A stretch of 58,927 nucleotides of DNA from Candidatus Blackburnbacteria bacterium RIFCSPLOWO2_01_FULL_40_20 (GTDB taxonomy: Bacteria > Patescibacteriota > Microgenomatia > UBA8517 > UBA10165), in the NCBI GenBank assembly GCA_001816475.1, contig MHCC01000026.1, positions 1 to 58,927 of the forward strand. The letters are read 5' to 3'. The notes under the pieces are model-generated. The model worked only from the letters and a program-made list of their open reading frames with translations, made no database searches and was not told the DNA's origin. Of the stretch, positions 8,847 to 50,169 are shown one piece after another. A program made the translations under genes and the position numbers. Every line of letters begins with the position of its first letter. The stretch's first letter is position 1.

Positions 8847-11800
8847 TATTGGGTAGCCTCCATTAAAACCTCAGCTTCGTTAACAATCTTTTGTTCATCT
8901 TTATCATCCGATGTCAAGCTTTGCTTATCGCGTAGCGTCAAGCTTTGCTTATCGCCTAGCGTCAAGCTTTGCTTATCGCCTAGCGTCAAGCTTTGCTTAT
9001 CGCCTAGCGTCAAGCTTTGCTTATCGCGTAGCGTCAAGCTTTGCTTATCTTTATCCATATCTATATCTTTTTTTTCTTCGACCTTCGCTAATATCTCACC
9101 TTTTGGCTCGATCGACAAGCCCAAGGAGTTAAGTTCTCTTACTAAAACCTTGAAAGATTCAGGTACTGTTGCTTCTGGGATTTCAGTCCCTTTAACAATT
9201 GCTTCAAACGCCCGTGCTCGCCCAACAACGTCGTCAGACTTTATAGTTAACATTTCTTGCAAAGTATGAGCTGCACGATGTGCCTCAAGTGCCCAAACTT
9301 CCATTTCTCCCAATCTTTGTCCACCCATTTGAGCTTTTCCTCCAAGAGGTTGTTGTGTAACTAATGAGTATGGTCCAGTTGAACGAGCATGAGTTTTGTC
9401 CTCGACCATGTGGGTAAGTTTCATAATGTAACTAACGCCAACAACTGTCTTTTCTTGAAAAGGCTCACCTGTTCGACCGTCGTATAGTTGGGACTTTGAA
9501 CTTACCGGCAAACCAGCTTTCTTCATAAGATCTTCAATCTCCTGTGGAGCTAACTCGTCAAAAACAGGCAAGGCAAACTTTTGTCCAGTTTTCGAAGCTA
9601 CCCAGGCAAGCTGTGCTTCCAAAAGCTGTCCTAAATTCATACGAGCAATAACAGAAAGTGGGGAAATTATGATATCTATTGGAGTTCCGTCCTCCAAATG
9701 AGGCATATCGTAGGCCGGAACAATCTTTGAGATGACTCCTTTGTTTCCGTGTCGCCCTGCAAGTTTGTCTCCTACAGAAACTTTCCTCATCTGAGCAACC
9801 CTAACAATTACTTTCTTTAGGGTTCCTGGGTCCAAGTCATCCCCTTTGTCGCGGTCTAGAATTTGAACATCAACAACTACTCCGTGTTCGCCATGCGGAA
9901 CGCGAAGTGATGTATCTCTTACCTCGCGTGCTTTCTCTCCAAATATTGCCCTAAGAAGTCGTTCCTCGGATGTCAGTTCTGTTTCACCTTTGGGTGCAAT
10001 TTTACCCACTAAAATATCGTTTGCCGAAACTTCGGCGCCAATAACTACAATTCCATCCTCTGCCAAATTTGCAAGGTCATTTTCGGCAACATTCGGAATA
10101 TCTCGAGTTAGCTCCTCTGGGCCAAGCTTTGTATCAACAACTTGGGCTTCATACTCTTCAATATGAATTGAACTTAATGCATCGTCTTTCACTAAGCGGT
10201 CTGAGACTGCAATTGCGTCCTCAAACCCTAATCCTTCAAACAAACAATAGGCAATAAGTAGGTTTTGTCCTAAGGCCAATTCTCCATCGTCTGTCGCAGG
10301 ACCGTCTGCAATAAGGTCACCCTTTTTAACAACATCGCCAACCGTTATTTTTGATCTTTGGTTAAAACACGTAGATTGTGCAGTACGCAAGAACTTGTTC
10401 AAAAAGTAAATTTCCTTTTTGCCTTCAATTTTAATTCTGTCGCTTTCCTTGTCGTCTATCTCAATTTTTCCTTCTACCTCAACTTCGATTCTTTCTGCGT
10501 CAGCGAAAACAACAGTTCCTGCATTTCTTGCCCTGATAACTCTTGCCATTGCAGATCCAACTTTCTCTTCCATCCCCGTACCCATCAAAGGCGCTTGAGG
10601 ATTAACCAAAGGCACAGCCTGACATTGCATGTTTGTTCCCATCAAAGCACGATTTGCCTCATCGTGCGACAAGAAAGGAATTAAGGACGCTGAGGTTCCA
10701 ACAACTTGACGTGGGGTAAGGTCTATTAAGTCAACTTGATCAGCGGGCCCCTCGTTAAATTGGCCCTGGAATCTTATCGGAACCCATTTGTCCGTAATAA
10801 ATCCATCTTCGTCAATTTTTATACCTGCGTGGGTTATCCGATATTGCTCTTCGTCGTCGGCCGCAAGGTAAATTATCTCGTTAGTAACCTTCATCCTTGT
10901 TTTCGATTCTTGCTTAACTTTTTCTACTTTTCTATAAGGAGCCTCTAAAAATCCAAACTCATTTACCCGAGAAAATAAAGCAAGGTAGGTAACAAGACCA
11001 ATACTTGGACCTTCAGGCGACCTAACAGGATCAATTCTTCCATATTGAGATGCGTTGATGTCACGAATTGAGAAGGACGCTCGTTCTTTTGTAATGCCCC
11101 CCGGTCCCATAACTGAAAGACGCCGAATGTTGTCAATTTCAGAAAGCGGGTTTGTTTGATCTAAAATTGCAGAGAGTTGGTTTGACCGGAAGAAATCATT
11201 TAAAGTTGCCATCAATGGCCTGGCATTAACCAATGCGCTTGGATTTACAACATCATCAGTGGACGTAAGGCTCATCTTTTCCTTAACAGAACGCTCTAGT
11301 CTTACCATTCCCGCTCTGAACGCTGAGGCTAACACAAGCTCGCCAACACACCGTACGCGGCGATTTGCCAAATGATCAATGTCGTCTACCTTCCCCTCAC
11401 CATTTTGAAGACCAATAAGGTAGCGCAATGCTGCAACAACATCTTCAAGCCTTAAAGTCCAATTTTCTGGCTCATTTTTGACATCCAAGCCAAGTTTTCT
11501 ATTAATCTTGTATCGTCCAACTTTGTCTAAGCCATAGCGTCTTGGATCCAAAAACAAACTCTTAAACAAAGTTTCTGCATTTTCCAAAACTACCAACTCT
11601 CCGGCTCGCATCTTCCTGTAAATTTCAAGAAGCGCTTCTTCTTTGTTTCGAGAAGCATCTTTTTGGATTGTAGAATTTATATATGAATGTTGTTCGTCTG
11701 TATCAATATCCCTAAACTTTGCTTGTATGTCCTCGTCGCGAGTCAGCCCCATTGCACGCAAAAGTGTGGTTGCTGCGACTTTTCTTCTTCTGTCGATTCG

Positions 11801-12951: not shown

Positions 12952-13962
12952 TTATCGAATATACTTCCTAATGTTTTCGTCGTGTGCATCCATTGTTTCT
13001 GCGTAATGAATTATTCCTTTGCCGTCATGAAGGTAGAACCAATACATTGACTCCTTGGGATAAATTACAGCCTTTATGGAAGATATGCCGGGATTTGAGA
13101 TCGGCCCCGGTGGCAATCCTTGATTTAAATATGTGTTGTAGGAAGATTTAATTTCTTTATCGGCTGCAACAGGCGGCTTCCACCATTCGCAATCTAGTGG
13201 CACATTAGCATCTTTACACCTTTGAGTAGCAGTAAAATACTGCAAAGTTGCATCAATTTGCAGAGGCCATCCAGCCCCAATTCGTTTAAGCAATATCCCG
13301 CCAACAACAGGCCTTTCCTCGTCAGTCCTTGTCTCCCTCTCAACAAGTGAAGCCAAAACTACAACTTGATCCAAAGTTAATCCTGCCTTTTTTGCATCTT
13401 CTTTCATTTGGGGTGTCACTTTACTGTTAAAAGTTGAATACAACTTTTCAACAACCGTTAAAGCTTTGGTATTTTGGGAAAAAAGATATGTGTCAGGATA
13501 TAAATACCCTTCTTTTTCAAATGAAGCTGCTATGAATTCTTTCCAAAAAACTTTAGCTTCATCTTGACCAATGTTAAGTGTTTTTATTGTGCGGATCGCG
13601 ATTTCTTCCCGTCTTAAACCCTCCGGATATGTAACCCAAAATTCTGTCGGCCCGGAAACAAGTGCACTCACTACTTGTACTAAAGACAAACTTGGAGAAA
13701 TTCTAAATTCCCCAGCTTGTATTTTTTTATCTTTGCCGGTTATTTTTGCATAAACTTTAAATGCCAAGTCGCTTTTAATAAGCCCCTGGTTTTTAAGCTT
13801 TAAGGCAACTTGACCTACACCTTGGCCTTTGACAATCAAGAAATCTTGTTGGGTCTTGTCTTTTGAGTTGGCTGGTAAAGTTGTAACTTTCCACCCAACA
13901 ACCAATCCACCTAAAATCAATACAATGGTAATTAGATAAAAGAGGAACCTGGTATTCCGCAT
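12952..13962 (-). CDS. mltG: Endolytic murein transglycosylase MltG
   Basis: Cleaves nascent peptidoglycan glycan strands to set chain length. 336 aa: an N-terminal membrane anchor (residues about 6-26), a LysM-like region, then the YceG catalytic domain with GYLYPDTY, ASLVERET (catalytic Glu), LQIDATLQY and YNTYLNQGLPPGPISNPG. It starts at ATG 13962. The 5' flank is unusual: a 24-bp tandem repeat array begins about 13 nt upstream and fills the spacer up to the zinc-ribbon gene. Downstream is the P-loop kinase, 5 nt away. Confidence 0.95.
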   Translation of the reverse strand: MRNTRFLFYLITIVLILGGLVVGWKVTTLPANSKDKTQQDFLIVKGQGVGQVALKLKNQGLIKSDLAFKVYAKITGKDKKIQAGEFRISPSLSLVQVVSALVSGPTEFWVTYPEGLRREEIAIRTIKTLNIGQDEAKVFWKEFIAASFEKEGYLYPDTYLFSQNTKALTVVEKLYSTFNSKVTPQMKEDAKKAGLTLDQVVVLASLVERETRTDEERPVVGGILLKRIGAGWPLQIDATLQYFTATQRCKDANVPLDCEWWKPPVAADKEIKSSYNTYLNQGLPPGPISNPGISSIKAVIYPKESMYWFYLHDGKGIIHYAETMDAHDENIRKYIR

Positions 13963-13974
13963 GAGGCAAATTCT

Positions 13975-14146
13975 TTATCGCGTAGCGTCAAGCTATGCTT
14001 ATCGCGTAGCGTCAAGCTTCGCTTATCGCGTAGCGTCAAGCTTTGCTTATCGCGTAGCGTCAAGCTTTGCTTATCGCGTAGCGTCAAGCTTTGCTTATCG
14101 CGTAGCGTCAAGCTTTGCTTATCGCGTAGCGTCAAGCTTTGCTTAT
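13975..14146. repeat. 24-bp tandem repeat array in the mltG leader (6 full plus 2 partial copies)
   Basis: Full units start at 13987, 14011, 14035, 14059, 14083 and 14107, with partial units at both ends. The unit is the same as in rpoB. The flank on the zinc-ribbon side, GATATAGATAAAGATA read on the minus strand, also resembles the rpoB array flank. Here the array is outside any convincing gene, although its frame stays open as DKQSLTLR repeats. Confidence 0.95.
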
Positions 14147-14158
14147 ATGTATCTTTAT

Positions 14159-14392
14159 CTATATCTGCACCTCTTCTAATAGTGCTCTTCTGTAAACCTT
14201 TCTCTTTAAGTCATGTATAAATAGTCTTCCACAACTGCAAACCACTTTTTCACTACCATCTTTTCTTTTACTTCGCGTTCCGCTTGCCAGTTCCCGACCA
14301 CACCCAACACACCTGCCTTGAGACAACAGCCAAACTTGAATTGGGGCAATTACATTTTTAAACAGACCTGGTATTCTAGCTTTCTGTTCCAT
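14159..14392 (-). CDS. Small zinc-ribbon protein
   Basis: 77 aa from the ATG at 14392, which overlaps the end of ruvX; an upstream start would run antisense-like through ruvX and is rejected. A four-Cys ribbon CVGCG...CSCG at about residues 28-54 is followed by a basic segment DLKRKVYRR. This suggests a nucleic-acid- or ribosome-associated zinc protein, but no family is recognised. The overlap with ruvX implies translational coupling. The stop lies at the edge of the (GATANA) tract that flanks the tandem repeat array. Confidence 0.65.
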   Translation of the reverse strand: MEQKARIPGLFKNVIAPIQVWLLSQGRCVGCGRELASGTRSKRKDGSEKVVCSCGRLFIHDLKRKVYRRALLEEVQI

Positions 14393-14777
14393 GCGCGTCC
14401 AAATAAGATTGTAGCACAAGTGTACTTGAGAATGCATCTTCCATCTCTTTTCTTCTTTTTTGGGGCAACTGTGCACTAAGCGAGAGTTCTTGCGCATCTT
14501 GAGTTGAAAGCGTTTCATCCCATGTTTCAACTTTAACCCCAAGTACTTTTTCTAAATCCTTACTAAACTTAATTTCCTCGTCAGCCATTTTTCCTTCAGA
14601 AATCCCAACCACAACCTTTTCAGCATTTTCTTCTTTAACTACTTTTTGAATTTCTTCAATAGCATTCTGTTGTGAGGAAACTCGAATCACCTTCAATGGA
14701 AAAGCTATGTTCCCACTAGATAACGACAATCCCATTTTCGATCTTCCATAATCAACGCCGAGTATGATCATAGTCAT
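14376..14777 (-). CDS. ruvX: YqgF/RuvX-type Holliday junction resolvase homologue
   Basis: RNase H-fold protein implicated in Holliday junction resolution and in 16S rRNA 5' end maturation. 133 aa with GVDYGRSKMGLS (catalytic Asp), VVVGISEGK, WDETLST in place of the usual DER(L/F)TT, and MEDAFSSTLVLQSYL. The ATG at 14777 is preferred because GGAG lies 6 nt upstream. An in-frame start at 14876 would run back into sortase. The sortase stop is 23 nt upstream and the zinc-ribbon start overlaps its 3' end. Confidence 0.85.
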   Translation of the reverse strand: MTMIILGVDYGRSKMGLSLSSGNIAFPLKVIRVSSQQNAIEEIQKVVKEENAEKVVVGISEGKMADEEIKFSKDLEKVLGVKVETWDETLSTQDAQELSLSAQLPQKRRKEMEDAFSSTLVLQSYLDAHGTES

Positions 14778-14800
14778 TACAAGCTCCACACCTTTACCAA

Positions 14801-15490
14801 CTAACGATTCCCACCTGGTGGCACCAGCCTTCCTCTCACCACAAGTCTTCGAAGGTACGTTCCAGGCGGTACGCAAGTTATCAAAGAAATATAACTATCA
14901 TCATACATTTGGTCCATAACTTCTACCTCTGTAGGTTTTACCTCAAACATATCCTCAACTTTATAAGTATAGTTTATACCATCATAATTTACTTTTATCA
15001 CGTCTCCTTTTTTAAGAGTAGACAATGTCGAAAAAATTGAAATATAATTATCAGGCTTGAATAATTGCGGCAGAGTTGAGTGTCCAAAAACTACAGTGTT
15101 TCCAGGTCTTCCCGGCACCGCCGTGCCTTTAAAATGAATAAGGCTTTTTTTTAAGTCTTCTCCGTCTATTTCAACTACTGCATCTTTTATTCCAAGTCTG
15201 GGAATCGAGAGATTATAATACTTAATTTGTGCTGTTGTTTCCTGGGAGACGCGAGGCAAACCAACAAACCAATTGGCAGGCTTAGTGTAATCAATAGGAG
15301 TGTTTTCTGTTTTTTCTGTACTTGATCCAGCAACCACACCTTGCCCAACAGGAGACAAAAGATCAATGCGTTGAAAATTGCCAGAGGTAAAAATTTCGTA
15401 ACTAATAATTGGCAGTAAAGCGTTAAAGACTAGTAGTAGCCCAATAAACATTAATCCCAAAGATAGAATTTTGAAGAGATATCTTGTCAC
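14801..15490 (-). CDS. Sortase
   Basis: Membrane transpeptidase that attaches LPxxG-type proteins to the cell envelope. 229 aa: one N-terminal transmembrane helix (about 5-29), a Ser/Thr-rich linker, then the sortase barrel with catalytic His137 in VFGHS, Cys206 in ITCVPPG and Arg214 or Arg215 following it. Starts at GTG 15490, overlapping the stop of the upstream gene by 4 bp. A plausible substrate with an LPVAG sorting signal is encoded at 49552-50169. Confidence 0.92.
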   Translation of the reverse strand: MTRYLFKILSLGLMFIGLLLVFNALLPIISYEIFTSGNFQRIDLLSPVGQGVVAGSSTEKTENTPIDYTKPANWFVGLPRVSQETTAQIKYYNLSIPRLGIKDAVVEIDGEDLKKSLIHFKGTAVPGRPGNTVVFGHSTLPQLFKPDNYISIFSTLSTLKKGDVIKVNYDGINYTYKVEDMFEVKPTEVEVMDQMYDDSYISLITCVPPGTYLRRLVVRGRLVPPGGNR

Positions 15491-17826
15491 CTTTCAGCGG
15501 AAACCTCGATACTTATATTCTTTGCGACTCGAGGCAGTGTGCCCAATTTTCCAGGGAAAAGGAAGCTAAATGAGATTTCTGCTCTTGTGTATCCTGGAAT
15601 TGTGGCCAAATAGTTTTTGGCAACAGTCGGATATTTACCTGTAATTTGTTTTGCAATGTCCACTGGGTCAACTTTTGGCAAGAAATTAGCCTTTATTGTT
15701 GCAACAAAAACTTTAGCTTGAGTTCCTGTCTTTGTATCTTTTGTGTCTTTACTTTTATCTTTGGTGGAAGTTTTGGTTTTGGACGCCTGGGTTTCTACTG
15801 GTTTATAACTTATTTCAACTTGGTCTTGAGCGATACTAAATCCTTGAGGAATTTCTTTTTCAAGCTTCTCATACACAAGCGAGTTAATATCGTTTTGTGA
15901 AATAACAAGTACTGTTACCTTTCCAGAAAGCGTAAGTTTCACAGTCGAGCTTTCCTCGCCTACTTTGTTGCTAAAAGTCTTTTCGCCAACTTGGAAATTT
16001 GATGAACCGTCAACAGGAGTTTCTTTTTCGTCTAATAGCCCTTTTATTTGATCCATACCTTTTTGCAATAATTCTGCCGTCAAATCTTTTTCCAGATCGG
16101 CTCTATCAGTTTCCGAGACTGCCGAGACGGAACGGCTTGTACCGCCAGAAAACGCTTCATCGTTTTGTGCAACAAATTCGGCCTTTGAAGAGGCACCAAC
16201 AGAAAACTCAGAATTGCTAGCCAAATTATATTGAGCGCCTATGTCTACCGCAGTGACAGTTGATTGCGCTTTTGAAGGATTAGTTATACTGCTTCCCGTT
16301 GCAATTTTTGTTTCGTCGTCTAGAGTAAACTTCAATCCACTTGGGCCTGATAAAACTGTACCAACTTTAAGCGTTACAGGAGTACCAACATGCAAAACAG
16401 TAACCTTACCCTTAGAGCGCTCGCCAACCGTTTTTGTACCAGTTGTCGAAATGGTCTTTTCGCTTGAAATCTGTGCTTCCTTCACAATTCCTGGTACTAC
16501 TTTGTTGTTGCTATCAATGCTTGAAAGTTGGGGATTAACAGTAAATTCAAAAGTTTTTTCTAGTTTTTTTGGAGCTACATAAACCGTAACTTGTGCTTTT
16601 GGTAAATACCAATACAACGCTCCTCCGCCAACCAAAATTAACAAAAGAACTATCCCTGGAATTAAAATTAAGCGCCCACCTTTCCCTCCGAATGAAAGTT
16701 TGGGATACGACAATCTCCCTAAAACGCCCAATATTGCCAGTGAGTTTGGTCTCTTTCTAACATGAACAGCACTCGCATGCTCTTCCTCCTCTGTATCTAT
16801 ATCCTTATCACGTACTTGCGGAAAATCTTTTGGCTCTGCAACATTCTTGTGGCTTTCAACATCTTCTGTTGTGTGAGCAACAAACTTACCTGTTTCTTCT
16901 GCGGCGATATCACTCTCCACAAAACCCAAATCTTGAGCCCTTGTTTCCTCTTCTTTATTTTCCTCATTCATCTCTTTCTCCCCATCTTCACCCTCGTGCT
17001 CTTCTTCTATCTTAGACTTGGTCTTAGACTCATATTCTGCGCCCAAATCTTCCTCTACCTCAACAACTTGTTTTACATTTCCAACCTCAGCACCCCCGGC
17101 TAGAGAAACTGAAATTACTCCAATGTTTTCTGGGAGTATTTGGACCTTTGGAGTATGTAAAAAACTAACTTTTTGTTCGTCCCAATTTGTTTCTAAAATG
17201 TTTTGTCTTGCATCGTCCAAGTTTCCCACTCTGTGGTCATAAAGAAGGATTCGGGATGGATATTGTTCAAGTTTTGCTAAACGTGCCAAACCTTCTGCAA
17301 CGTCTGATCCTAAAGATATACTTTTTGAAACGTCGGTTGTCCCTAAAATCTTTCCACTTTGAACTAAAGTTACCTCGATTGAGTCTTCAAGAAGTCCAAC
17401 TAAAATAGCGTTTAATGGGGCGCCTTCCTTAATTTTAATATAATGAACAATTGCCTCAGGTATTACTACAAATCCCGCAGGTGAAAGTTCAAGCTCCCCA
17501 GAAACTTTCTTTAAGATTCCTAAATACTCTTTTTTGATTAAACCTTCCTCAACCCAAGAAGACATAAGACCAAAAACAACTTTATTTGGTTCTTGAATTT
17601 CCTCTGTTATGTTTGAAGTTGCGCTTGACAGCGAACTATCCGCCGCAGCTACTAAAGTTTCATTGTCCCCCTCCTGCCAAGAAGTAGGAACTCCCTCTGC
17701 AACAATTTCTGCAATTTCGCCATTTACTCGCCAAATAGCAGCATCTGTCCAATTTTTGCCAATAACAAGACTCCAATAATGCTCTTGGCCTTCGCCTGTT
17801 TTTTTGAAAATACCACCTAAGACCAT
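15487..17826 (-). CDS. Membrane protein with actin-like N-terminal and baseplate-J-like C-terminal regions
   Basis: 779 aa. Residues 1-240 contain WVEEGLIKKEYL, GFVVIPEAIVHYIK and RILLYD, which resemble the PilM/FtsA actin-like fold (divergent; no clear phosphate loops). Residues 250-360 are a very acidic Glu/Lys linker. A transmembrane helix follows at about 385-407. The outer part includes GKVTVLHVGTPVTLKVGTVLSG, which resembles the baseplate J/gp47 fold, and a Lys/Thr-rich low-complexity linker near 690. It may connect cytoplasm and envelope as part of a surface assembly; this is inferred. It overlaps the sortase start. The leader is a CAATTTT heptad palindrome. Confidence 0.7.
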   Translation of the reverse strand: MVLGGIFKKTGEGQEHYWSLVIGKNWTDAAIWRVNGEIAEIVAEGVPTSWQEGDNETLVAAADSSLSSATSNITEEIQEPNKVVFGLMSSWVEEGLIKKEYLGILKKVSGELELSPAGFVVIPEAIVHYIKIKEGAPLNAILVGLLEDSIEVTLVQSGKILGTTDVSKSISLGSDVAEGLARLAKLEQYPSRILLYDHRVGNLDDARQNILETNWDEQKVSFLHTPKVQILPENIGVISVSLAGGAEVGNVKQVVEVEEDLGAEYESKTKSKIEEEHEGEDGEKEMNEENKEEETRAQDLGFVESDIAAEETGKFVAHTTEDVESHKNVAEPKDFPQVRDKDIDTEEEEHASAVHVRKRPNSLAILGVLGRLSYPKLSFGGKGGRLILIPGIVLLLILVGGGALYWYLPKAQVTVYVAPKKLEKTFEFTVNPQLSSIDSNNKVVPGIVKEAQISSEKTISTTGTKTVGERSKGKVTVLHVGTPVTLKVGTVLSGPSGLKFTLDDETKIATGSSITNPSKAQSTVTAVDIGAQYNLASNSEFSVGASSKAEFVAQNDEAFSGGTSRSVSAVSETDRADLEKDLTAELLQKGMDQIKGLLDEKETPVDGSSNFQVGEKTFSNKVGEESSTVKLTLSGKVTVLVISQNDINSLVYEKLEKEIPQGFSIAQDQVEISYKPVETQASKTKTSTKDKSKDTKDTKTGTQAKVFVATIKANFLPKVDPVDIAKQITGKYPTVAKNYLATIPGYTRAEISFSFLFPGKLGTLPRVAKNISIEVSAER

Positions 17827-17970: not shown

Positions 17971-19782
17971 TTAAAGTAATTTAATATATATCCTTCTTAT
18001 TCCTGCCCCTGCTGATTCTTCCTTTGTTATTGTAACACTCCCAATCTCTCCTGTGTGCTCAACATGTGGCCCTCCGCAGATCTCCCTTGAAAAGAGAGAC
18101 CCGCGAGTTTGACGAGTCGAAGGATCTCCAATTGTATAAACTGTTACCGTGTCCCTATATTTTTCTTTGAAAAATCCAAGGGCTCCCTCTTTTATTGCCT
18201 CGTCAAGCGTCACTGTTTTATAACTAACAGACAAATCCTCTTCAATTTTTTCGTTTATCAATTTTTCAACTTTTTCTATTTCTTCTTTTGACAAAGGCGA
18301 ATTGTGCGAAAAATCAAATCTCAAACGTTCTTCGGTTATATTTTGTCCCTTTTGCTGAACGTGTTCTCCCAAGATTTGGCGCAAAGAAGCTTGCAAAAGA
18401 TGTGCAGTTGTATGCAGCTTGCGAGTTTTTGGCGTGTCAGCAATCAATCCTCCCTTAAAAACCCCAATTCCTGCAGTTCTGGACAGTTCCTTGTGTTTTT
18501 CAAATTCTTTATAAAATTCTTCCCTTTTAATCTCTTGTCCCTTTTCGCGAAACAATTCTTCCGTTAGCTCAAGCGGAAAACCAAACGTTTGATATAAATC
18601 AAATGCAGCCTTCCCGTTAATTTTGTCTATTTTTTGCACTTCTTTAAGACCCTTGTCTAATGTTTTTCCAAATCGCTCAATTTCTGTGGTTATAACTTCA
18701 CCCACCAAACCAACTTGTTTTTCTTTCTCAACTCCAAACATCCCATCATAATTTTCCAAAACCTTTTTTGAAGTCTCAACTAATACTTTTACGATTTTGT
18801 CAGGATTTAGTTTCTGAATTTTCACAGCAGACCTTCGGAGCAACCTCCGGAGTACATATCCTTGCATTTTGTTTGAAGGGATAACTCCGTTGATTATCAA
18901 AAACGTCGAAGCTCGCATATGGTCTGCAATGATCCGCATTGTCTGTTTATTTTCTCCTGCGTATTCTCTATCTGTATCCGTTTCAATTTGCTTGATCAAA
19001 CCCTCAAACAAATCAACACCAAAAACATCAGGTTGGTCACCTACGGCCGCTGTTATTCTCTCGAGTCCACCACCAAAATCAACATTTTTTTGCGCCAATT
19101 CTTCTAGCGTTCCCTCTTCTTTTTTTACGTATTGAATAAAAACGCAATTCCCAATTTCCATGAATCGCCCACAATCGCAATTTGGGTGGCATTTTTCACC
19201 ATATTTCGGATCGTGTTTAACTTGAGTGAATTCATAGAAAACTTCCGAATCCGGTCCGCCAATCTCCCCAGGTGGCATCTTGTCTGGAGTCCCAGTACGC
19301 GACCACCAATTTTTCTTTACGCCATAGAAGTAAATGTGATCCTCGGGAACTTCTAAACTTTTCCAAATCTTTACCGTCTCTTCGTCTTTTCCAACTCCTG
19401 ATCCGCCTTCAAAAACTGAAACATAAAGTTTTTCCCTTTCAAGCTTCAATTCTTCAGTTAGAAACTCCCAAAAGTAGGAAAGTTGTTCTTTTTTGAAATA
19501 CTCCCCGAGTGACCAATTGCCAAGCATTTCGAAAAAAGTTGTGTGGCGCGAATCCCCAACCTCATCAATATCCTCAAGGCGCAAACAAGGTTGAGAATCA
19601 ACAAGTTTTGTTCCTTCCGGGTGGGATTGACCCTTAAGATAAGGAACTAAAGGTTGCATTCCAGAAGAAGTAAAAAGAGTAGTGGAATCATCCTCAAGCA
19701 CTAAAGGAACTGGGGCAATTTCCTTGTGCCCTTTTTTAACAAAAAATTCAATATACTTTTGGCGAATATCGCGCGATGTCAC
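17971..19782 (-). CDS. alaS: Alanyl-tRNA synthetase, short form
   Basis: Charges tRNA-Ala. 603 aa against roughly 870 in most bacteria. The catalytic domain begins MTSRDIRQKYIEFF and has FTSSGMQPLVPYLKG and RHTTFFEMLGNWSLG. A tRNA-recognition helical domain (NKMQGYVLRRLLRR) follows, then the editing domain with HTTAHLL and CGGPHVEHTGEIG. The protein ends there, so the C-Ala/DHHA1 region is absent. It starts at GTG 19782, behind a TGG-TAAAAT extended -10 only 10 nt upstream. A Cys-rich insert HPNCDCGRFMEIGNC lies in the catalytic domain. Confidence 0.95.
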   Translation of the reverse strand: MTSRDIRQKYIEFFVKKGHKEIAPVPLVLEDDSTTLFTSSGMQPLVPYLKGQSHPEGTKLVDSQPCLRLEDIDEVGDSRHTTFFEMLGNWSLGEYFKKEQLSYFWEFLTEELKLEREKLYVSVFEGGSGVGKDEETVKIWKSLEVPEDHIYFYGVKKNWWSRTGTPDKMPPGEIGGPDSEVFYEFTQVKHDPKYGEKCHPNCDCGRFMEIGNCVFIQYVKKEEGTLEELAQKNVDFGGGLERITAAVGDQPDVFGVDLFEGLIKQIETDTDREYAGENKQTMRIIADHMRASTFLIINGVIPSNKMQGYVLRRLLRRSAVKIQKLNPDKIVKVLVETSKKVLENYDGMFGVEKEKQVGLVGEVITTEIERFGKTLDKGLKEVQKIDKINGKAAFDLYQTFGFPLELTEELFREKGQEIKREEFYKEFEKHKELSRTAGIGVFKGGLIADTPKTRKLHTTAHLLQASLRQILGEHVQQKGQNITEERLRFDFSHNSPLSKEEIEKVEKLINEKIEEDLSVSYKTVTLDEAIKEGALGFFKEKYRDTVTVYTIGDPSTRQTRGSLFSREICGGPHVEHTGEIGSVTITKEESAGAGIRRIYIKLL

Positions 19783-44889: not shown

Positions 44890-45453
44890 ATGTCTGCCAC
44901 CAAAAGAAAAAACGTTAATCTTTTACCTTCTACGGGCTTTGAACATTCCCAAACCGGAAAATTACTTAATTGGCTTCTTACCGGGGGACGCGTTATTGTT
45001 ATTTGCACAGAAATAGTTGTAATAGGTGCATTTTTTTCTCGTTTTTGGCTTGATAAAACACTTACTGATCTTTATGAACAAAATAACTTAAAAAAAGCTC
45101 AAATTGAAGCTTCGTCAGTTTTTGAGTCTGAGTTTAAGGCACTCCAAACAAGAATTAATATAATCAAAAGCTCGGATGCGACTAAGTTGGACGCTTCAAT
45201 AGTAACAAAAAACATCGCATCTGTTTTGCCACCAGGGGTAGTCTTGACCAACATATCAATTGCAAATGGCGAAGTGATATTAAAAGGAAACTCTCTTTCT
45301 GAAGGAGGATTGGTCGGACTAATGAAAGCTTTGGAAGGAAGAAAGGATTTTAAAAACCCTATATTGTCTAACATTGGTCTGGAAACTCTCGGGCAACAAT
45401 TGATCGGCTTTACAATCAAATTTAACACAGAAAAGGAAGGTAAAAGTAAATGA
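44890..45453 (+). CDS. pilN: PilN-like type IV pilus assembly protein
   Basis: 187 aa. A short cytoplasmic N-terminus contains KRKNVNLLPSTG, the PilN signature that docks into PilM. Then come a transmembrane helix (about 34-52), a coiled coil (LYEQNNLKKAQIEASSVFESEFKALQ region) and a ferredoxin-like fold with SVLPPGVVLTNISI. It overlaps the next gene by 4 bp. A PilM partner is not adjacent; the protein at 15487-17826 has a PilM-like N-terminal region and could fill that role. Confidence 0.82.
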   Translation: MSATKRKNVNLLPSTGFEHSQTGKLLNWLLTGGRVIVICTEIVVIGAFFSRFWLDKTLTDLYEQNNLKKAQIEASSVFESEFKALQTRINIIKSSDATKLDASIVTKNIASVLPPGVVLTNISIANGEVILKGNSLSEGGLVGLMKALEGRKDFKNPILSNIGLETLGQQLIGFTIKFNTEKEGKSK

Positions 45454-46106
45454 CAGTAAACTATCGAGAACAATACGCAAAGTACAACAAATATTTTACA
45501 AGCCTTAGACTTGTTTATACAAAAAAGCCTGAAGTTAGGGTGAGTCTTAATTTATTAATGACTCTCTTGGCTATTTCCTTCTTTGGTCTTTTTGCACTTA
45601 GATCAACTATTTCAACAATTGCCGAACTTTTATCAAACGTCAAATCACAAGAGGAAATCTCAAATAAGCTTGATGAAAAAATTCAAGCACTGCAAAAGGC
45701 ACATGCAAATTGGACACAAGAAGCTCAAAGGGAATTCTTAATTGACCAAGCACTGCCAAAAGGACCTCAACCTGATGACTATTTAAGACAGATTGAGGGC
45801 CTTTCTGCTCAAACAAGTGTTACGCTTATCGCGCTTACGTTGCAAGATGTCTTGATTTATGGAAAGGGAGGCATAAGTGCTGACCAGAATGCAGATAAAG
45901 ATAGCTCCGGACCAGTCAAATACATGAATGTAACATTCACAGTTGAAGGACAATATTCTCAAGTTATTTCTTTCGAGAACGGTCTAGAAAATCTAAGAAG
46001 GACCATTAAGATTGACACACTTTCTTTAGGGCAGGCAAAAAAACAAACAAACAATATTACACTAACAATCGCAGGAAAAGTTCCTTACTTGGATAGTCAA
46101 AAATAA
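45450..46106 (+). CDS. pilO: PilO-like type IV pilus assembly protein
   Basis: 218 aa. Cytoplasmic N-terminus, transmembrane helix (about 31-50), coiled coil (NKLDEKIQALQKAHANW), then a PilO-type domain with PDDYLRQIEGLSAQTSVTLIAL and MNVTFTVEGQYSQVISFENGLENLRR. In type IV pili PilN and PilO form the inner-membrane alignment complex. It starts at a codon overlapping the pilN stop. No PilB, PilC or pilin gene is present in the window. Confidence 0.8.
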   Translation: MTVNYREQYAKYNKYFTSLRLVYTKKPEVRVSLNLLMTLLAISFFGLFALRSTISTIAELLSNVKSQEEISNKLDEKIQALQKAHANWTQEAQREFLIDQALPKGPQPDDYLRQIEGLSAQTSVTLIALTLQDVLIYGKGGISADQNADKDSSGPVKYMNVTFTVEGQYSQVISFENGLENLRRTIKIDTLSLGQAKKQTNNITLTIAGKVPYLDSQK

Positions 46107-49551: not shown

Positions 49552-50169
49552 ATGAAGCTCGATAAAAAAACAGTTTTAATGATCGTTTCAACAATAATTA
49601 TCTCTCTTGCCGCGGCTTTCGGTGGTTGGAAATTATATTTTTCACGAAACCAAGCGATTGCACCAACCGCTCCAAAACCGGGTTCCGCTCAAGAAGTCGC
49701 GACAACATGCACAGCTTCTTTTACAGTTGCCGCTTTGCCCGTTACCCCTAGCCCTACGTCACCATCGCCAAGCGTAAGACCAACTCCATCACCTAGCCCA
49801 TCACCGTCCTCAAGACCATCTCCTGCAGCCTCACCATCCCCCACACCTGAGGGTGGTCCTGTTATTCAATCACCAAGCCCATCACCAAGAATTTCTCCGT
49901 CCCCATCACCTAGCCCATCACCATCCTCAAACCCATCCCCTGCTGCCTCACCTACCCCCACCCCTGAGGGTGGTCCTGTTATTCAATCACCAAGCCCAAG
50001 TCCATCTTCATCACCCAAGGTTGTTGCACAGGCCAGTCCAAAAGCGTCTCCTAATGTATCACCAAGTCCTGTACCCCAACTTCCAGTTGCCGGGGTAAGT
50101 ATTCCAAGCATAGCAGCGATTGGAAGTGGAATAATTCTTCTTGTGGTTGGCGCACTTCTTGCTTTTTAA
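49552..50169 (+). CDS. Pro/Ser-rich wall-stalk protein with LPVAG sorting-type tail
   Basis: 205 aa: signal/anchor helix (about 8-29), a Pro/Ser stalk (residues 65-175) containing a 39-residue tandem duplication, then LPVAG at 177-181 followed by a hydrophobic helix to the last residue (VSIPSIAAIG...ALLAF). Pro-rich stalk plus LPxxG plus terminal helix is the layout of a sortase substrate, although the usual basic tail is missing. The sortase at 14801-15490 is a candidate partner. It is the last gene of the surface cluster; the next gene converges with a 2-bp gap. Confidence 0.7.
   Translation: MKLDKKTVLMIVSTIIISLAAAFGGWKLYFSRNQAIAPTAPKPGSAQEVATTCTASFTVAALPVTPSPTSPSPSVRPTPSPSPSPSSRPSPAASPSPTPEGGPVIQSPSPSPRISPSPSPSPSPSSNPSPAASPTPTPEGGPVIQSPSPSPSSSPKVVAQASPKASPNVSPSPVPQLPVAGVSIPSIAAIGSGIILLVVGALLAF
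49786..50005. repeat. 117-bp tandem duplication in the Pro/Ser-rich gene
   Basis: Copy 1 starts at 49786 and copy 2 at 49903, both with CCATCACCTAGCCCATCACC. The period of 39 codons keeps the reading frame. Differences are mostly synonymous, plus R to N and S to T changes. Confidence 0.9.

Follow-up and report, generated by a model that had tools for sequence, protein, structure and literature searches.

The gene at positions 15487–17826 (minus strand) of the window, the whole 58,927-nucleotide stretch of Candidatus Blackburnbacteria DNA analysed here, is probably a fusion, common to the class, of two genes that are adjacent but separate in other members of the phylum, and the two unfused genes probably encode an envelope pair of an actin and its bitopic partner. 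We label the unfused FtsA-like actin ACT and the single-pass envelope protein OUT. In the fused gene, a pseudo-actin and a bitopic envelope protein form one chain of 779 aa, encoded by a 779-codon ORF that runs without interruption and agrees exactly with the limits first noted for it. Homologues were found in all 37 related genomes searched and in 56 of the 59 genomes of the class; therefore, this is a core gene of the class rather than an ORF that arose by chance. Woese-, Blackburn- and Gottesmanbacteria and other Microgenomates are among the named relatives, which points to Microgenomatia as the class of the window. The 28 named loci were obtained by scanning genome contigs with an alignment of closer relatives, and the same scan with the single protein as query gave no matches. 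Literature searches returned nothing about the 779-aa protein or the ACT–OUT pair.

Along the chain, an actin-fold inner domain (residues 14–256, positions 17059–17787) is followed by an acidic linker, one membrane helix and an outer region, all on the minus strand. The cytoplasmic linker (residues 257–386, 16669–17058) is acidic at first and basic directly ahead of the membrane, with a net charge of −25 and 36% Asp/Glu over residues 253–352. A short DLGF motif (minus strand, 16921–16932) is conserved within this otherwise variable linker. Among 62 sequences, F302 is invariant and G301 nearly so, and one similar copy is present in an unfused relative (locus L142). The hydropathy profile contains one hydrophobic segment, at about residues 379–410, in which the single membrane helix (residues 387–408, 16603–16668) reaches a peak of 2.7 over 19 residues. 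The basic stretch ahead of the helix fits an N-terminus that would remain inside the cell. The outer region occupies residues 409–779 (15490–16602). The earlier note had read the same build from the sequence, an actin-like part, a long acidic linker, one helix and an outer region, and charge, hydropathy and structure models agree that it is real.

The AF2 model of residues 1–256 (mean pLDDT 91.6, pTM 0.88) has two halves, each with the order β-β-β-α-β-α-β-α. AF2 and Foldseek thus both give the two RNase-H-like halves that characterise the actin-fold superfamily. The best Foldseek matches of the inner domain in the PDB include PilM (TMq 0.62), FtsA and PPX/GppA, in line with the suggestion that this part is PilM/FtsA-like. 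Structure prediction of both ends had been proposed as a check, and it returned an actin-like fold inside and a gpJ-like barrel outside, not models with neither fold. In sequence, Pfam gave no match to FtsA or PilM, and specifically none to PF11104, for any of the 62 fused members among the best 25 of 26 matched families. The NCBIfam FtsA and PilM models (TIGR01174, TIGR01175) do not match the fused protein either. Profiles of FtsA, PilM and RuvX from the class gave weak local matches to the inner domain; RuvX was considered as the origin of the actin-like part and rejected, its profile match being no stronger than those of FtsA and PilM. The profile of unfused ACT aligns co-linearly with the inner domain (E 7e-23 over 215 columns, and E 1.4e-11 when built a second time).

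The unfused form emerged when the class profile was compared with the phylum, where it matched in 184 of 192 genomes; the outer region is conserved phylum-wide along with the helix. Outside the class, the match is confined to the region from about the linker onward, in ORFs of mostly 410–640 aa, and OUT has no actin part there. From the match list we took 60 unfused loci, a sample that is not random (20 mostly high-scoring loci and 40 spread down the list). The gene upstream of OUT is actin-like in 48 of the 60, weakly so in one, and OUT stands without an adjacent ACT in 12. ACT mostly comprises 375–520 codons and mostly overlaps OUT or lies less than 300 bases away from it. Wherever the neighbours are in view, the order is alaS, ACT, OUT, RuvX, MltG, which is the locus of the fusion. 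At one locus (L175, genome G151), two ORFs of 206 and 203 codons stand in place of a single ACT upstream of OUT, a possible frameshift or pseudogene. OUT carries a conserved cytoplasmic N-terminal domain of its own, about 90 residues long, in 55 of the 60 unfused proteins versus none of the 62 fused ones. The consensus over the first 100 residues of OUT (loci L142–L208) contains IYLExDEEITSxIDKL...LVxPKxAxLLQSxVNLKLLK, and searches of Pfam and the PDB with this domain gave no convincing match. No unfused relatives of OUT were found on plasmids.

The sequence of ACT is closest to that of FtsA. It matches FtsA in Pfam with E values down to 1.7e-17, scores 104–106 bits at most against the curated FtsA model TIGR01174, which is under the cut-off of 175.85, and also falls below the NCBI PilM cut-off. 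Its C-terminus is amphipathic like that of FtsA and unlike that of PilM (mean z of 1.50 for ACT, 1.46 for FtsA and −0.64 for PilM). This likeness, together with FtsK and an HTH_25 (RodZ-like) gene upstream in the class locus, would suit a membrane-anchored regulator of the divisome, in the manner of a second FtsA/FtsN-like unit that works with FtsZ and not with MltG and lateral wall growth. However, the genome encodes a separate canonical FtsA beside FtsZ, and we consider such a divisome role rather unlikely. Since FtsA, beside FtsZ, and PilM both have genes of their own in this genome, the fused protein is neither FtsA nor PilM.

Compared with ACT, the inner domain is a compact actin fold that lacks both the IC and the IIB insertion, as judged from AF2, Foldseek, the ACT profile match and the motif columns. 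ACT residues of about 94–190 and 263–310 are missing from it, and the first of these stretches aligns with FtsA residues of about 82–165, the part of FtsA in which the IC subdomain lies. The IC subdomain that replaces actin IB in FtsA is thus absent from the fusion, and the region aligned with it is present in unfused ACT. The phosphate-1 Asp and the phosphate-2 Asp each occur in 95% of ACT versus 0 of 63 fused sequences, and the first Gly of the adenosine motif in 100% versus 10 of 63. The fused form has therefore lost all three nucleotide-binding motifs of the actin superfamily, in addition to the IC subdomain and the OUT cytoplasmic domain. A closing motif is kept in both forms, as W...PF..PK in ACT and W...FLH.PK in the fusion.

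In a tree of OUT, the fused parts form one clade (SH-aLRT 96). In a tree of the actins, the fused parts are placed with the ACT sequences, separate from FtsA and from PilM, on a long branch and with weak inner support. The fusion apparently happened once in the class, and a single fusion of neighbouring genes would be the simplest history. Homology to the ACT–OUT pair, the shared locus, the single fused clade and the losses in the fused form are established at the level of sequence comparison. Both the anatomy and the history of the fused gene are well supported.

The loss of all nucleotide motifs could also mean that the actin-like part survives as a passive remnant, in a protein that merely anchors or displays the outer region with the sortase, the constant partner of the fused gene. 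However, residues W215, F222, L223, H224 and P226 are invariant in 27 sequences and largely so in 62. The retention of such strongly conserved motifs would imply selection on the actin part for more than bulk, and we regard a passive remnant as unlikely.

The sortase gene (14801–15490, minus strand; PF04203, E 1.3e-27) has candidate catalytic His, Cys and Arg residues in VFGHS, LITCV and RLVVRG, assigned from the sequence. The 4-bp coupling to it that the earlier note had pointed out is present at the junction, AGGTGACAAG, where the stop TGA of the fused gene and the start GTG of the sortase share 4 bases. Of the 68 class loci whose sequence extends far enough downstream, 64 have sortase as the next gene, and the exact 4-base overlap is possible in 18 class loci. 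The C-terminus of the fused protein has no sorting signal, nor the hydrophobic segment expected there of a sortase substrate. The neighbouring sortase probably acts where the fused protein sits in the envelope but, with this signal missing, not on the fused protein itself. The other neighbours, also on the minus strand, are RuvX/YqgF (14376–14876; PF03652, E 1.1e-25), the endolytic transglycosylase MltG (YceG; 12952–13962; PF02618, E 3e-72) and alaS (17971–19782; PF01411, E 1.6e-110), the upstream neighbour across the phylum. Their order is kept in both class and phylum; in the class it reads alaS, fused gene, sortase, RuvX, small ORF, MltG and often rpoB.

A 24-bp tandem repeat occurs twice in the window. 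One array (8913–9049) is part of the rpoB 3′ end and is in frame, encoding DKQSLTLG repeats; the other (13975–14146) falls between the small ORF and MltG, and contig C15 carries a third (18546–18636). In total, the genome holds 15 copies at ≤1 mismatch, and the reversed-pattern control gave 0. Positions 49786–49998 of the window contain a repeat of 117 bp (1.8 copies, 91% matches).

The window also holds PilN and a weak PilO match, adjacent to each other at 44890–46106 and without PilM, and the earlier note had proposed that the protein could be the missing PilM of this pair. A canonical PilM (PF11104, E 1e-52) is encoded on another contig, C4, and PilM is present in 59 of 59 class genomes, including the three without the fused gene, so the fused protein is not the missing PilM. 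The PilM-like fold and the presence of both genes in the same window would be in keeping with an additional PilM-type scaffold that serves PilN and PilO in the type IV pilus machine. However, the sequence profile of the inner domain gives no PilM-specific match. The fused gene lies apart from PilN/PilO, in a locus of alaS, sortase, RuvX and MltG, and the conserved class locus contains no recognisable pilus genes. We find an extra pilus scaffold quite improbable.

The AF2 model of the outer region (pLDDT 85, pTM 0.58) contains a gpJ/GlxA-type β barrel at residues 469–563 (16138–16422, minus strand), which is supported by Pfam and PHROG, by a PDB profile hit (8v3w) and by Foldseek. Baseplate_J (PF04865) matches these residues with E 9e-4, just below the Pfam cut-off, over positions 21–110 of the 255 in the profile. 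Among the relatives, 51 of 62 have the match (E up to 0.1), the best at 6.6e-8, and a profile search with the outer region returned diffocin TRI-2 (E 1.2e-5). Foldseek superimposes the model on the phage Mu baseplate over 97 columns with an rmsd of 2.6 Å. The fit to gpJ folds is good for about 100–120 residues, and fits longer than about 300 columns have an rmsd of roughly 25–40 Å. GlxA scores about equal to gpJ in the fold searches, and in several unfused relatives the GlxA β-barrel domain (PF21110) scores above Baseplate_J, in one at E 1e-11. The remainder of the roughly 370 outer residues gave no clear match in these searches, and the full gpJ architecture is absent. Thus, the likeness of the outer region is one shared barrel, not a gpJ: the suggested resemblance to baseplate J stands for the barrel of about 95 residues, which is common to GlxA as well, and not for the rest. 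The gene studied here likewise differs from GlxA in having no oxidase domain.

Despite the likeness of its barrel to baseplate J proteins, in sequence as in fold, the fused protein is very unlikely to be a structural component of a membrane-anchored contractile injection or phage-tail-derived device, much as the earlier note had envisaged it, since the barrel alone matches and does so for the non-phage GlxA too, the gene is core and phylum-wide, the fused protein had no match in phage records, and a search of the genome found no sheath family (PF04984) and no Baseplate_J match beyond the fused gene. A phage origin was also considered and rejected, the fused protein being unmatched in phage records and no relatives being confirmed in viral contigs. 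The history of the fused gene explains why a core, non-phage gene of these bacteria gives a misleading "baseplate J" match. Taken as a whole, the first interpretation keeps its anatomy and its sortase coupling and loses both the missing PilM and the injection device.

Returning to the fusion of an ACT–OUT pair, we propose that in the two-gene form ACT would be held at the membrane by its C-terminal amphipathic helix and would dock onto the cytoplasmic part of OUT. The tails of FtsN and PilN bind in the IA–IC cleft of FtsA and PilM (PMC7613929). By analogy with FtsA on FtsN and PilM on PilN, and from the shared operon and the fusion, we infer that ACT normally docks on OUT in a similar manner. 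The pair could then signal position or polymer state on the inside to the outer region, with peptidoglycan enzymes, MltG among them, as the most likely targets. In the fusion, the covalent link may take the place of docking, and the actin part may serve as a fixed oligomerising or protein-docking platform beneath the membrane. The nucleotide-driven switch and the docking parts would be dispensable in the fusion because the covalent link replaces docking; indeed, what fusion removed (IC, the OUT cytoplasmic domain and the nucleotide motifs) suggests that the docking parts were no longer needed.

A role of the ACT–OUT pair in wall growth is less firmly indicated. It is suggested by MltG as the regular neighbour of the pair and by the pattern of absences. 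Three class genomes without OUT are also without MltG, yet PilM is kept in them; the co-absence of OUT and MltG concerns four genomes and genes of one locus, so that an assembly gap could remove both. At one locus (L254, genome G108), alaS directly precedes RuvX and MltG, ACT and OUT are absent, and a sortase lies upstream of alaS. Strict dependence of MltG on OUT was rejected, as MltG is present without OUT in G108.

With the balance about even, we suggest that Patescibacteria share a hitherto unrecognised third envelope actin module, an FtsA-like actin with a bitopic gpJ-barrel protein, that would be distinct from FtsA and PilM, would couple the cell inside to wall growth, and would in one class have become a single-chain, nucleotide-independent pseudo-actin. 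The wall and division biology of this phylum is little known. The class-wide fusion can be viewed as a natural experiment, in which the parts lost on joining suggest which of them serve docking and switching.

The PilM–PilN system likewise combines an actin-superfamily protein with a single-pass partner, and the inner domain resembles PilM in fold. It differs in that PilM and PilN are encoded elsewhere in the genome, the locus studied here being free of recognised pilus genes and the sequence of PilM-specific matches. In FtsA–FtsN, a cytoplasmic actin-superfamily protein is similarly paired with a single-pass partner whose larger part is outside, and unfused ACT shares the amphipathic C-terminal helix. 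In contrast to FtsA, ACT scores under the FtsA model cut-off, and the genome has a canonical FtsA besides. OUT carries the gpJ/GlxA barrel, which FtsN, to our knowledge, does not have, and in the class both partners form one chain whose actin part is devoid of the nucleotide motifs. If our suggestion is correct, ACT–OUT would be a third pair of an actin-like and a single-pass protein beside FtsA–FtsN and PilM–PilN, and would occur across most of a phylum that is very large and made up of ultra-small bacteria.
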